DNA of 64,000 bases from Daedaleopsis sinensis (lineage: Eukaryota > Basidiomycota > Agaricomycetes > Polyporales > Polyporaceae): assembly GCA_033807695.1 (NCBI GenBank), contig CM066307.1, forward strand, positions 620,001 to 684,000, written 5' to 3'. Below the pieces are notes generated by a model that was not told where the DNA came from, searched no databases, and worked only from the letters and a program-made list of their open reading frames with translations. Below, in pieces: positions 35,728 through 41,844 of this stretch (its first letter is position 1; the number at the start of each line of letters is the position of its first letter). The translations under genes were made by a program, and so were the position numbers.

Positions 35728-38255
35728 TCAGGCAGCGTTGAGCGAACAGTCGAAGCTGCGAGCGCTATTCGGGTTCCCGCCACGGTACCGTAGGTTCGCC
35801 GGGTACTGTAGGTGGTCAACGTTAACGTTCACATCGACGTCCGCATTAGCAACGCCTCGCAACCTTCGCATACTAGAAGCACGGACCTTGCACAGCGGGC
35901 GGGTGAAGCCGACGCCGTTCGCAGCGTCGTTGTCATTGTAGTTCGCGGCGGTGAGCGTCTCGGGGGCGACGCCCTCCTCGACCCAGCGGACGATCGCGGC
36001 GAGGATGTTGTGCTCGGGGTCGAGCGAGAGCGGCGGGTTATTGTTGGACGCCTGCTCGACGGCACCGAACGCGTTCGCGGCGAACCCTCCCTAGCGAGCA
36101 CGCGGCGGTGCGGTGAGCGGTCATGAGACGGGGAACGGAGACCGGACTACGGGACAAGGAATCTGTTTGAGCGGACTCACATGGCTAAACAAAGAAAACA
36201 CGGCGATGTCAGAGGCGGGCGGACGCTGGTGGATATGCATATCACGGAGCGTACCAGTGGTTCATACCCGGGACGGTGAAGAAGCGGTAGAAGTCGTCGA
36301 TGTCCATCTCCGTGTTCGCTTGCGTGAATTGGTGGACGGTCTCGTAATAGTGGATGGCATTGCCAGGGCTGATGAGCTGGTCTGCCCAGCCGACGTACTG
36401 GATGAGCTTCCCGTTGTGTTGCGGCCCTGCGAATGCAGTTAAGTTTGGGTTGATCGCCTAGGATGGAGTCATGAGTATGGTCCTGTGCACATGTGTGCAG
36501 AGCGGCACTCACGTTAGCCTGTCCGACGTCTAGCGCGTCGGTGAGAGCCAAGAGATCAGCGTCGTAATCGTGTATTTCCCAAGTAGTGTCACTGCGAGTG
36601 GGCACATCTCGTCAACGATCTTCGTGCGGACTTCTCATCACGTACTTGACGACCATGAATTGGAAGTACGCGCGTCCGATTTTGAATTGCGTCTGGCCGA
36701 CGAGCCCGTGGTAATACTCCGTCTCTCCTCCGGGATAATACCCACCAAACACGTAAGTCTGGTCGGCCTCGTAGTAATCTGCGTAGATGCGGTGGAGAGC
36801 GCTGATCTGGTCAGCGGTGAGGCAGGTTGAAGTGTCCTGACCAACACGACATGTTAGAGTTTCAGGGCGAAAACTGTAAGTATGTATAGTTTAGGTTTGT
36901 GGTCAGCTCGACAGGAGTTTGGATGGGCTTCCCACGTGCCTGCAGGTTCGAGGATCGTTGATGATGCCGTCCGTGAGCTGTGAGAAGGACGGGCGGAGTA
37001 ACTCAGAATTGCATCTCGAACCGTGAAGACGGGCCAGGTTACATACCCCGTCCTGCGCGTCGCACTGTCGCATGACCTCCGGCGCGAGCACGTTCTGCCA
37101 CATGTCCTCCGTCATGAAGTGCGGCGACGTCGACGGCTGCACGTTCAGGTTCTGATGGATCGACCACGCCTGCAAATGCGTCCACCAGTTCGCAGGGGAG
37201 CCGACCACCTGAGCGGATGGCCGTACGGGGTCAGTGTACTCCTTCTACGCTTCGCGATGTCCGTGTCGACGCACCACGCCGTCGAAGTCCTCCGGGAATT
37301 CCTGGACTTCCTTCAATCTGCGAACGCGCGTATAATTAGCACCCGGACGCCCGAGGCTTGTGCCCGTGACGTATTATGGTACGCACCCCTGCCGTCCGCC
37401 TGTTCGCATAGGCGCAGAAGAGCGCCAGGTGTGAGCTTAAACCGCAGTGCATCGAGGGTAGGCGTCTGCAAGCGGGGTGCGCACCGTTGGAACAGCCCAA
37501 ATAGTAGGACTTCGTCGCAGGAGCCTTGTAGTAAGCCTTAACGACCTCCTTCCCCGCTAGCACGCTCAGGTGCATCGCACGCCAGCTCCAGTCGACTATC
37601 GCATTCTGTGGACACGTGGGGGCAGGTGAGCAGGTAGAGAGGGTCTGCGAAGCAGTGGATCAGCCACCCACGTCGTCGTGTGGTCCCGCCCAGTCGCCGT
37701 CATTAGTCGTACCAGCGTGACCAGTGTCGGTCGAGATCCCGGCGACTACAACGCATCAGATAAGCAAACGCTGTCGCAGGCCACGATGCAGCGGGGGTTG
37801 GGCGCACTTACATCTTTGAGGGATCGCGACGTGCCCCAGCTCAGTCACAGTGACTGGGGTGGGGACCGAGTGTGAGCGGACATGCGTGCGGTATTGGCGC
37901 CGAAGGACACCTTTAACGTACCTCCGCCGGCCATTCCACCATTCCCGACAGTGAGCACGCGGCCGTTCCAGTCATCTGGGAGCCAGACCTCTGCGAGGGC
38001 CGACGAGCCCGCCGTTGCGTTCGTCGTGATGACAAGCTCGACGCGGCAGAAGGCAGGGAGGCTCGTCGTGTTGATGCTGGAATAGAGGTTCGAGATGTTG
38101 ACGAGGGATTGGTTGGGGAAGTGAGTCGCGCCAGTCAGGTTGACATTAGGGATGTCGAGAGTGAGGCTTGCGCAGGCCCTTTGGGACCCACGGGCTGACC
38201 CCGCGGCGGCGCCGAGGACGAGGCCTAGGAAAGTGAGAGATGAGGTAAAGTGCAT
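35728..38255 (-). CDS. Secreted tannase / feruloyl esterase family protein
   Basis: Cleaves ester bonds of gallate or hydroxycinnamate in plant material. Starts MHFTSSLTFLGLVLGAAAG (signal peptide; an upstream in-frame ATG at 38270 is possible). Family segments in order: LPDDWNGRVLTVGNGGMAGG, LGHVAIPQR, ISTDTGHAGTTNDGDWAG, AMHLSVLAGKEVVKAYY, SYYLGCSNGGRQGLKEVQEF (nucleophile Ser in GCSxGG), DFDGVVVGSPANWWTHL, IQYVGWADQLISPGN (Asp), FTVPGMNHC (His) and a C-terminal SFDCSLNAA. The pairing of Cys next to Ser and next to His is the CS-D-HC motif of the family. Two micro-exons are needed: 13 nt (37399-37387) completes GGRQG and 4 nt (36184-36181, CCAT) completes HCHGG. A TATA box lies about 60 nt upstream. 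Confidence 0.88.
36181..36184 (-). other. Four-nucleotide micro-exon of the tannase gene
   Basis: CCAT lies between a TTTAG acceptor and a GTGAGT donor. The upstream exon ends CAC TG at 36255 before GTACGC. Only insertion of CCAT restores His-Cys (TG plus C) and keeps phase with the next exon (36090, GGA GGG TTC). Inferred from family alignment; no transcript evidence. Confidence 0.65.
37387..37399 (-). other. Thirteen-nucleotide micro-exon of the tannase gene
   Basis: GCGGACGGCAGGG sits between an ACAG acceptor and a GTGCGT donor. It completes the GCSNGGRQG nucleophile motif between exons ending TCC AAC G and starting A TTG AAG. Confidence 0.8.
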
Positions 38256-38311
38256 CAGGGGGACAAGCATTGGGTGCAGCTCACGGACATAGGCAGCGCA
38301 GTAGCCGTCGG

Positions 38312-38319
38312 TTTATATA
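38312..38319 (-). promoter_or_regulatory. TATA box of the tannase gene
   Basis: TATATAAA on the minus strand, 57 nt upstream of the ATG at 38255 and 42 nt upstream of that at 38270. Strong TATA boxes are usual for inducible secreted-enzyme genes. Confidence 0.6.
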
Positions 38320-38576
38320 CGGATGCAACGACAGACCTTCCGTTGAGTAGAGGGCCGGATTTAGGATGCAGCCCTGCGATGCTGCGATGATTCCGCGCGC
38401 GGTAGGGTGTGGACAAAAATACCACTAGTGGACAACGGCTGCCGTGATGCACGCGTCCAGATTACTTCACGAGAAGAGCCGTGGACTGGCAATAGCTCGT
38501 TGAGGACATGGCCTCAACGTAGACTGCCATGTGATGGCCATATTGGGACACGTGTAGATGGCGCTGGACGGTTCGG

Positions 38577-38626
38577 ACAGCGAAGAGCGTTGGAAGAGCG
38601 CACAGCGAAGAGCGTTGGAAGAGCGC
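38577..38626. repeat. Tandem duplication of 25 bp
   Basis: Two identical adjacent copies of a 25-bp unit beginning ACAGCGAAGAGCG. Confidence 0.85.
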
Positions 38627-38708
38627 ACAATTTGACGGCGGGAATTGGCGGGGCGACGGCAAGCCTAATAGTGGCACGGGTTACGATGCCCCCTTACACT
38701 ATCGTTCT

Positions 38709-38754
38709 AGCAGCCGGTGCTTTTGGGTTCCAGCAGCCGGTGCTTTTGGATCCA
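38709..38754. repeat. Tandem duplication of about 23 bp
   Basis: Two near-identical adjacent units beginning AGCAGCCGGTGC. Confidence 0.8.
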
Positions 38755-39244
38755 CTGGCCGTGGAACATCGTGTGCATCGGTCTAAAAAGGTCACACTGG
38801 GCGATTGGCTCTCGGATGCACATATGCAAGTCCTGTGACTAGCAGATAAGATAACCGAATATCTAGAACAACAAGCAGGGAACACTAGTACTCACCGGCA
38901 CCCACCAGGCGACGGTGGAAATAGTAAACCACATGAGGCAGTCTCAGCTCCATAGGTCCTATAAAGACTTCACCGTCAGGCACATCGAAACGTAACGTAT
39001 GACACAGAAATGGTACTGACGAACTGACAGCACGCAAAAGGATATCGATGGTTCTCATGCGCATGAGGAAATAACTCATTCATAATATTACGGAGGAGCC
39101 TACATACAGTGGAGGAACATGATGACTACAGCGTCTACATACAACTCACCTTGCAACGATTCACCACAAGTCTTGCAAAATAGATACCGCTTGAACCTGG
39201 GATAGACGATGAGCAGATGCTTGCAACGGAGAGACAACAGATGA

Positions 39245-39330
39245 AGGTTCAGAAAAGCAGGTTATCAATCAATGCCGCAGCTCAGCAACAGCTTCTAGTT
39301 GATTATTTTATGAAGAGTACTCATCTACAA
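39245..39330 (-). ncRNA. Candidate box C/D snoRNA, target not identified
   Basis: In the intron after 39358. C box TAGATGA at 39327-39321, internal CTGA at 39285-39282 and terminal CTGA at 39252-39249. No target recognised. Confidence 0.5.
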
Positions 39331-39453
39331 GCGAACGCCAAGAGAGACGATGACTTACGACCAACCGACTGCAAGCTTCTTCACACAGCCTTCCCTGTGC
39401 GGTCATCCTGTCACAGTGAAGTCAGCGGATGTTCATGACGATACGAGAACATA

Positions 39454-39545
39454 TAATCAGAGGGGGTGCCCGAAATATTGAGCTGTGGCGGGCATTTTCG
39501 GCAGCGATGATACGAAGACCGTCGTGATAAAGACATCATGCGATG
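39454..39545 (-). ncRNA. Candidate box C/D snoRNA, target not identified
   Basis: In the intron after 39567. C box ATGATGT at about 39539-39533 and CTGA at 39461-39458 give the same 80-nt geometry as its neighbours. I could not match the guide next to D to an rRNA segment from memory. Confidence 0.5.
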
Positions 39546-39684
39546 TGGTATGGAATGAATAACTCACCTTGCTCAGAGATCTACAACCTGCGGCCCATGT
39601 TGGCAAGTCAATGCAGAGAGTCAATCGATGTCTAGAAGAAAGAATTGTTGTCAGCAAATAGGCCAGACATGATGATACGAGAAT

Positions 39685-39785
39685 AAGCTCAGAGTTTAAA
39701 AAAACAGCCTTGGAATTGTCGTCATAGACCCGCACATCCGTAGACATGCGGTCAGGCGGTAACTCCATTGTTACATCAGGGCGAC
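39685..39785 (-). ncRNA. Box C/D snoRNA, 18S U578 guide (yeast snR77-like)
   Basis: In the intron after 39806. C box CTGATGT at about 39778-39772, D' CTGA at 39755-39752, C'-like GGATG, D box CTGA at 39692-39689. The plus strand at 39756-39767 reads GCGGTAACTCCA, against 18S GCGGTAATTCCA (the 530-loop region), so the guide pairs over 12 positions with one G-U. The fifth nucleotide from D' pairs with the U of GCGGU, which is 18S Um578 in yeast, the snR77 site. Confidence 0.75.
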
Positions 39786-39912
39786 TTCAACAGGAAAAAT
39801 ACTCACCGACAGTTACCAGCTAAATCAAGCGTTCCAGAACCTTGCCGCTGCAGACAAATAACCGAAGTCAGCCAGGACTATCAACGGTGGCCAAGTCAAA
39901 CGATGAAGAGGT

Positions 39913-40003
39913 GGAGATCAGTGGATTGACAGATATAGTAAAGCATCGAGCTCGTTGGCTCTCAGATACTCTAGTTTGAATGGTTTAAAACTCATCGCGT
40001 CGC
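39913..40003 (-). ncRNA. Box C/D snoRNA, 18S U1269 guide (yeast snR55-like)
   Basis: In the intron after 40046. C-box-like CGATGA at about 39992-39998, D' CTGA about 25 nt later, C'-like CGATG, D box CTGA at 39921-39918. The plus strand at 39923-39934 reads GGATTGACAGAT, identical to conserved 18S rRNA. The fifth nucleotide from the D box pairs with the first U of GGAUUG, which is 18S Um1269 in yeast, the snR55 site. Perfect 12-bp guide duplex. Confidence 0.8.
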
Positions 40004-40165
40004 GACGTGTCGAAGATGAAAGAGGGAGCATTGACAAGCTACTCACCGATCCCCTGTCTATCCAATCCCTCACGGTCAGGCATCAGCAGATGAGACGATG
40101 CGCATGTAACGGCGTCATCTGAGGAGGAGGGTATGTTAGCTTATGTGCGAGTGCAAACACGCAGA

Positions 40166-40263
40166 ACCGATCAGTGTAACTATGACAAAAAATCCACAGC
40201 ATCGTGTATGCCACTTGGTAGAGCGACACCACTCGAGGTAAACGAATAGTATCATCGCGTCGA
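40166..40263 (-). ncRNA. Box C/D snoRNA, 25S A2256 guide (yeast snR63-like)
   Basis: In the intron after 40287. C-box-like CGATGA at about 40252-40258, D box CTGA at 40174-40171. The guide lies immediately 5' of the D box. The plus strand at 40176-40186 reads GTAACTATGAC, identical to the universally conserved 25S rRNA segment GTAACTATGACTCTC. The fifth nucleotide from the D box pairs with the A just before CUAUG, which is 25S Am2256 in yeast, guided there by snR63. The duplex is 11 bp and perfect. Confidence 0.78.
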
Positions 40264-40507
40264 AGGAAAGGATGAAGGCACACTCACCGATGTCAAGGAC
40301 TCGTCGCAGCGACTTGGTAGTGACGAGGAAGGTGGTTGGCCAAAATCTTCGTCGGAATTTTCAGCACCGATGTTCAGGGCAGGCTTGCTGGCGGCAACGC
40401 GTGACGCCCTGAGACGCCGGGCACATCTTATCAGATAACACCCACGTCAGACTGAGTCTGCCGCATGATTGTCAATGTAATGGCACAACATCTCTTGCAT
40501 CCCATCC

Positions 40508-41844
40508 ATGTCCACGACTGCAGGACTAGTTCGCACTTTGACCGCTTACGCACATCCTCTGCGCACTACTGCTGCGAGGACGTGTCGCTTGGGAGCACGC
40601 GCAGCTTCCACATCCTCGACGGGTCCGGTAGAGTTGCACTATGACAAGGCCCTGCCACCCGACGGTAACGAGACCGACAAGCCACTTGTGATACTACATG
40701 GCCTATTGTACGTCTCTTCATGGATTGTTATGAATTTTCGGTGGAGATCCAACGTGAACTCCAAAGTGGGACGAAGAGAAACTTTGGCTCGCTCTCAAAA
40801 GCGTTCGCGAAGGATCTGGGGCGACCGGTGTATACACTCGTACGTCCGACGTTCTGTCCTTCGACGTGTTCTACTACTGACTCGAGCAGGACCTGCGCAA
40901 CCACGGGACCTCGCCCCACGCCGAGCCACACACATATACCGCCATGGCGGCCGACGTCCTCCACTTCTGCCAGACTCACAACCTGTCTGACGTCTCCCTC
41001 CTCGGTCATTCCATGTAAGCATGGTAATCATACGTGCCTCCCTTCGCCTCGTTTTCTGACGCGGCGGCATGCGCCAAGGGGAGGAAAAGTCGCCATGTCC
41101 GTCGCGCTAGACCCCGAGCTCCCTCCTGACCTGCTCGCGCACCTCATCGTCGTAGACATCGCGCCCGCGCGCGGCGCACTTTCGAGCGAGTTCCGAGACT
41201 ACATCGTGGCCATGCAGCAGATCGAGGAAAGCCAGGTGAAGACGCGCCAGGAGGCTGATCGCATGCTCAAGCCGTACGAGAAGGTGCGTTCCCGCATGCC
41301 TTGGGCTCTGCCACAGACGCGGTGTGAATCAGTGTGCCCGTCCAGGACCCGATGACGCGCGCGTTTCTGCTCATGAACCTCGAGCACCCGACGGCGCACC
41401 ATCCGCATCCACTCAAGTTCCGCATACCCGTCGGGCTGCTTGGCGGTGCGATACAAGACATCGGAGACTTCCCCTGGTCGCCGGGCGAACGGACGTTTGA
41501 CGGCCCGACGCTCTTCATAAAAGGCTCCAAGAGCAAGTACGTACTCTGCCACTCGCCCGTCTCTTGCAAGGGTTGACTCATACGGCGCAGATACATCAAT
41601 AGGCATAATGTAGACACCGCAAAAGCGTTCTTTCCGAACATGGTGTTGGAGGAACTGGATACTAGTCACTGGGGTGCGTCTTCTCACTTCTGATCAACGG
41701 TCGTATTTAACATGCCGCGTGATGCAGTGCATTCGGAACGGTACGCGTCCATTACTTGTACCTTTCTGTCTATTTCGCGCTCACACGGATTGCAGGCCGA
41801 ACGAGTTCAAGGCGTTAGTCACGAATTTCATCAGATCCCACTGA
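40508..41844 (+). CDS. Mitochondrial alpha/beta hydrolase, ABHD11 / Imo32 type
   Basis: Starts MSTTAGLVRTLTAYAHPLRT, an Arg/Ser/Ala-rich presequence typical of mitochondrial import. Joined exons give LVILHGLFGTKRNFGSLSKA (oxyanion HG), GRPVYTLDLRNHGTSPHAE, DVSLLGHSMGGKVAMSVAL (nucleophile Ser in GHSMGG, split by an intron after GHSM), LIVVDIAPARGALSSEF (a segment typical of this family), GPTLFIKGSKSKY and DTSHWVHSERPNEF (catalytic His), ending VTNFIRSH. The first intron donor after CTA TT gives Phe-Gly at the junction as expected. Human ABHD11 and yeast Imo32 are mitochondrial. The yeast substrate is unknown. About 300 residues. Divergent from the snoRNA host. Confidence 0.9.

Follow-up and report, generated by a model that had tools for sequence, protein, structure and literature searches.

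What kind of gene underlies the run of regularly recurring minus-strand splice sites in this 64-kb window, the whole stretch of DNA that was analyzed? We conclude with high confidence that it is a polypore snoRNA host gene, most likely from fungal cluster I and apparently non-coding, whose introns would yield rRNA-methylation guides. Descent from fungal snoRNA cluster I, taken by itself, is a probable reading that we hold with less assurance. The splice sites, the boxes, the fifth-nucleotide guide complementarity, and the absence of a long open frame are all legible in the sequence.

Seven minus-strand 5′ splice sites lie at 40287, 40046, 39806, 39567, 39358, 39149, and 38895. Their spacing—241, 240, 239, 209, 209, and 254 bases—is exactly that of the original prediction. 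Introns 1–6 end in CAG, CAG, TAG, CAG, CAG, and TAG, and exons 2–6 are each 41–72 nt long. The host's first exon and promoter region probably occupy 40288–40507 (−), between the 5′ splice site at 40287 and a plus-strand ORF that begins at 40508. Exon 7 (38896–38958, −), read by eye, is followed at 38895 by what may be a seventh 5′ splice site, after which a reading of the sequence gave no clear acceptor or snoRNA.

Spacing of about 240 and then 209 bases could also arise from a tandemly duplicated unit. Three of the 15 intron pairs resemble each other more than most shuffles do (introns 3–4, reached by 1/200 shuffles; 1–2, 5/200; 1–6, 11/200), and introns 3 and 4 have in common the 16-mer TTCTCGTATC(A/G)TCATG, at 39668–39683 and 39434–39449 (−), downstream of their D boxes. 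This 16-mer has no further place in the window within 3 mismatches; at least two matches occurred in 20/100 shuffles. The remaining 12 pairs were equalled by at least 42/200 shuffles, on which ground duplication was mostly rejected, and one snoRNA per short intron, flanked by short exons, would account for the spacing. We consider tandem duplication highly unlikely as its source.

Box C/D architecture was assessed by geometry: a C-like box 20–55 nt from the 5′ splice site, a CTGA 40–80 nt from the 3′ splice site, and a C–D distance of 50–115 nt. Five of introns 1–6 carry a RUGAUGA-type C box, agreeing with the consensus in 5–6 of 7 letters, and a CUGA D box at fitting distance, against 26–49 of 5,000 shuffles per intron; the ranges were chosen after the introns were seen, and the controls were single-base shuffles. 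Intron 6 (38959–39149, −) failed this test and was on that ground rejected as a C/D snoRNA carrier; it has no Rfam match, and no ACA trinucleotide was found by eye that would make it an H/ACA candidate. The expectation that C-box and CTGA positions recur across the introns, with one box C/D snoRNA in each, is borne out by geometry for introns 1–5, the fifth as a candidate, and fails for intron 6. Folding energies were unremarkable (z from −1.79 to 0.48).

Covariance-model searches gave a sub-threshold signal. With cmscan, no match in the whole 64-kb window reached the Rfam gathering score, and the top score in the region was 24.2 bits against a gathering score of 36. At E ≤ 10, six of the seven matches in 38000–41500 are minus-strand C/D snoRNA families (SNORD35, snoR442, Afu_300, snoR14, SNORD12, and snR78), whereas snoRNAs made up 0/2 and 0/4 matches in two control stretches of equal size. 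The Infernal check proposed for the locus therefore turned up C/D families without placing any intron in Rfam SNORD35, snR78, snoR14, Afu_300, or snoR442, all of which stayed below the gathering score. The SNORD12 match runs across the boundary between the end of intron 3 and the adjoining exon and is taken as chance; no Rfam match falls in 38890–39370.

In place of the species' own rRNA, guide complementarity was evaluated against eukaryote-like rRNA loci on contaminant contigs and against a typed yeast rRNA sequence. Fifteen rRNA loci were fetched from contigs filed under prokaryote assemblies; seven with archaeal titles were dropped and eight kept. All eight entered the locus-by-locus guide scan and the box-plus-guide test, and five of them the CTGA-box count. 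The eight loci (L002, L004, L005, L009, L010, L011, L013, and L015) carry eukaryote-like rRNA on contigs filed as prokaryote, which is probably contamination; eukaryotic rRNA was not found on viral contigs or plasmids. The yeast numbers A2256, U2421, and C2959 follow general background or the original prediction.

Intron 1 (40119–40287, −), identified as a C/D snoRNA by its splice sites, boxes, and guide, has a C box GCGATGA at 40258 and a D box CTGA at 40174. Its predicted guide (40186–40176) fits 25S A2256, the snR63/U46 site. It forms 11 pairs to GTAACTATGAC, its fifth nucleotide opposite the A of A2256, in 8/8 loci used, a presence partly built in by a retrieval pattern that overlaps this site. 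The corresponding Rfam match, snoR442 (E 0.79), is below cut-off.

Intron 2 (39848–40046, −) appears from its boxes and guides to hold a dual-guide C/D snoRNA, with a C box GCGATGA at 39998, a D′ box CTGA at 39965 (guide 39979–39967), and a D box CTGA at 39921 (guide 39934–39923). The putative D′ guide fits 25S U2421, the snR78/U52 site, pairing over 13 positions in L011 and, at the corresponding place in L010, over 11 plus a wobble; a third match, in L013, lies at a different place and is taken as chance. The base opposite the fifth nucleotide is 165 nt after A2256 in the typed yeast rRNA, and the Neurospora crassa counterparts of the two sites, Am2218 and Um2383, are spaced as in yeast (PMC2780460). 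The putative D guide fits the 18S snoR14/HBII-55 site, that of plant snoR14 and human HBII-55, at about yeast U1231: matches occur in three of eight loci (L009, L011, L015), and 12 pairs form with typed yeast 18S, the fifth nucleotide at 1231. The original prediction had assigned this guide to 18S U1269, the snR55 site; we rejected that target, as the real complementarity sits 38 nt upstream and the published sites are distinct. In N. crassa 18S, the snR55/U33 site Um1265 lies 38 nt downstream of the snoR14/HBII-55 site Um1227, for which Table 1 of PMC2780460 lists no Saccharomyces cerevisiae counterpart. AtsnoR14 Um1232 and HBII-55 Um1288 are likewise separate from U33 Um1270/Um1326 (PMC3511168), and the SNORD110 target is 18S U1288 (PMC5025248). 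Both Rfam matches in this intron, snR78 (E 9.3) and snoR14 (E 3.5), are below cut-off. Past the D box, at 39909–39896 (−), the ten letters that precede a TTGA are complementary to ACGATGAAGA in three of eight rRNA loci. That target presumably resembles 5.8S rRNA; the pairing lies outside the snoRNA and is probably chance.

Intron 3 (39632–39806, −), assigned as a C/D snoRNA by its boxes and guide, has a C box CTGATGT at 39779, a D′ box CTGA at 39755, a C′ box ATGACGA at 39725, and a D box CTGA at 39692, with a hairpin predicted between D′ and C′. The predicted D′ guide (39767–39756) fits 18S U578, the snR77 site, in 3/8 loci (L009 and L015 with 11 pairs and a wobble each, L002 with 10 and a wobble); its fifth nucleotide falls at typed yeast 18S position 578. 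The Rfam match is Afu_300 (E 3, below cut-off).

Intron 4 (39408–39567, −), a C/D snoRNA by its splice site, boxes, and guide, carries a C box ATGATGT at 39539, a degenerate D′ box CGTA at 39514, and a D box CTGA at 39460. Its predicted D′ guide (39527–39516) fits 25S C2959, the snR73/U35 site: 12 nt pair with AGACCGTCGTGA, a stretch present in four of eight loci (L005 and L010 stop short of it). Taking CGTA as D′ puts the fifth nucleotide on the first of two adjacent Cs; the second C is 704 nt after A2256 in the typed yeast rRNA, so the first, at 703, is C2959. SNORD35 is the Rfam match here (E 0.028, below cut-off). Two of the three guide sites originally claimed, 25S A2256 in intron 1 and 18S U578 in intron 3, thus stand, 18S U1269 does not, and the guides for 25S U2421 and 25S C2959 had been missed. 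All five guide sites are positions with a methylation guide listed for N. crassa (PMC2780460); three are also given in PMC3511168, where the snR78 site is printed as Um2414.

Could these introns be ordinary ones in which C-like and CTGA motifs arose by chance and the CTGA close to each 3′ end serves as the branch point? CTGAC sequences at 39871, 39654, 39425, and 38979 are possible branch points near 3′ ends, and 17 similar, chance-like box-plus-guide configurations occur elsewhere in the window. The D boxes, however, do not coincide with the CTGAC sites, being 49–70 nt away from the 3′ splice site, and five guides land on listed methylation sites. In introns 1–4, guides within the 10–21-pair range place the fifth nucleotide on the base predicted to be methylated, in contaminant or typed yeast rRNA. 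CTGA boxes with at least 11 Watson–Crick pairs to rRNA (five contaminant loci plus typed yeast) number 4/13 in introns 1–6 against 10/437 elsewhere in the window, the four adjoining guides having 11, 13, 12, and 11 pairs. The region has six box-plus-guide configurations, whereas 300 dinucleotide shuffles averaged 0.5 and peaked at 5 (observed count reached by 0/300), in a test that omits typed yeast rRNA and the D′ guides of introns 3 and 4. Three of the six (40079 in exon 2; 39692; 39252) are probably chance; the exon 2 match, 12 pairs to one contig only, was handled as such. A laxer guide scan, with eleven box spellings and larger offsets, gave extra intronic matches to one to three loci that were left uncounted. 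Overall, ordinary introns are an extremely improbable explanation.

Intron 5 (39197–39358, −) is an orphan C/D snoRNA candidate recognized by geometry alone, with a C-like box TAGATGA at 39327, a D′ box CTGA at 39285, and a D box CTGA at 39252. Its CTGA boxes gave 8 pairs plus a wobble and 9 pairs in the CTGA-box count, and the best pairing in wider scans was 10 pairs plus a wobble, to one contig. These pairings are not at conserved sites and were dropped as targets; no guide of 10–21 pairs was accepted, and the contaminant loci and typed yeast rRNA offered no convincing rRNA target.

The host transcript itself has little apparent coding capacity. In the joined exons, with the limits of the first and last exon set arbitrarily, the longest ATG-started ORF is 38 aa, below the 59 that is the median for single-base shuffles. 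Stops are frequent in all three frames, and stop-to-stop open stretches reach roughly 65 codons by eye. That the exons lack a shared reading frame, as originally proposed, agrees with this result: no ATG-started frame exceeds 38 codons, which fits a UHG-like host, a spliced RNA without a long reading frame. A protein-coding gene with snoRNAs in its introns, like fungal RPL7 or NOG2, would have precedent, as fungal snoRNAs do occur in protein-gene introns (PMC8476143); the short ATG-started ORF and the stops in all three frames make such a host very unlikely here, and the gene is probably non-coding.

The surroundings of the host were also surveyed. A plus-strand ORF (40508–40990) starts divergently from the presumed first exon, so the ORF and the snoRNA host may have a promoter in common. 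Part of this ORF resembles, as we take it, an alpha/beta-hydrolase; the pieces tried gave no Pfam match. Downstream of the host, at 36906–38270 (−), two ORF pieces match tannase/feruloyl esterase weakly, under the Pfam cut-off. Elsewhere in the window, an ORF of a BUB1-like gene has 66–72% identity to proteins of Cerioporus, Lentinus, Dichomitus, and Trametes in the leading rows of a list of 120 of 419 matches, which makes the source a polypore.

From these features we infer transcription, splicing, and trimming of the predicted snoRNAs and the methylation that they would direct. Splicing of an apparently non-coding host transcript would join its short exons, and trimming of each released intron would leave a single box C/D snoRNA guiding ribose methylation of rRNA. 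As box C/D snoRNAs, these would be stable small RNAs bound by fibrillarin, Nop56, Nop58, and Snu13. The predicted targets are 25S A2256 for intron 1, 25S U2421 and the 18S snoR14/HBII-55 site for intron 2, 18S U578 for intron 3, and 25S C2959 for intron 4; intron 5 would release a predicted C/D RNA with no assigned target.

How does such a host relate to described snoRNA clusters? In yeast and other fungi, snR78-77-76-75-74-73-72 form one cluster; its members are intronic in the basidiomycetes examined, and its spliced host RNAs show little conservation and no long ORFs (PMC3596301). The yeast counterparts had been described as separate genes; snR77, snR78, and snR73 belong to one yeast cluster (PMC3596301), so that description is wrong for snR77. 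The locus resembles cluster I of Luo et al. 2013 (PMC3596301) in the succession of its snR78-, snR77-, and snR73-type guides (introns 2, 3, and 4), one per intron, with no long exon frame. It differs in an snR63-type intron added upstream, in an snR78 guide located in one RNA with an HBII-55/snoR14 guide, and in the orphan candidate of intron 5. The complete seven-member cluster is not present in recognizable form: snR76, snR75, snR74, and snR72 have no Rfam match in the region. We therefore file the locus only as a reduced, rearranged form of fungal snoRNA cluster I. In some basidiomycetes the introns of snR78, snR75, and snR72 now lie elsewhere and those of snR73, 74, 76, and 77 are lost (PMC3596301).

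A more specific scenario is that the cluster was rebuilt in polypores, with an snR63 intron recruited upstream, the snR78 and snoR14/HBII-55 guides joined, and intron 5 encoding a lineage-specific C/D RNA. We offer this rebuilding tentatively, as somewhat doubtful. Were it true, one intron 2 RNA would mark both ribosomal subunits, and the intron 5 RNA might have a non-rRNA target.

Intronic snoRNA clusters in non-coding fungal hosts are already described (PMC2780460, PMC3596301); what is modestly new here is the snR63 intron and the snR78/HBII-55 dual guide. We found no earlier description of the snR78 and snoR14/HBII-55 coupling in the part of the literature covered. Cluster I has served to trace how fungal introns are gained, lost, and moved, and the locus contributes a polypore example. 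It also predicts rRNA methylation guides that Rfam models miss in the window at gathering score, and it combines a guide for the snoR14/HBII-55 site with an snR78-type guide in one RNA.

In N. crassa, the closest counterparts are CD5, CD24, and CD31, intronic C/D snoRNAs for 26S Um2383, 18S Um575, and 26S Cm2917 (Liu et al. 2009, PMC2780460), all listed on one chromosome, VI. N. crassa cluster hosts are UHG-like, with short ORFs only. The arrangement differs, however: there CD5 combines the snR78 guide with an snR72 guide, CD44 on chromosome IV serves the HBII-55 site, and chromosome III carries the snR63 homologue CD33 (PMC2780460). Animal hosts of the UHG/gas5 type, named as analogues in PMC2780460, with the U22 host named in PMC3596301, resemble the polypore locus as spliced RNAs of little coding potential with intronic snoRNAs.
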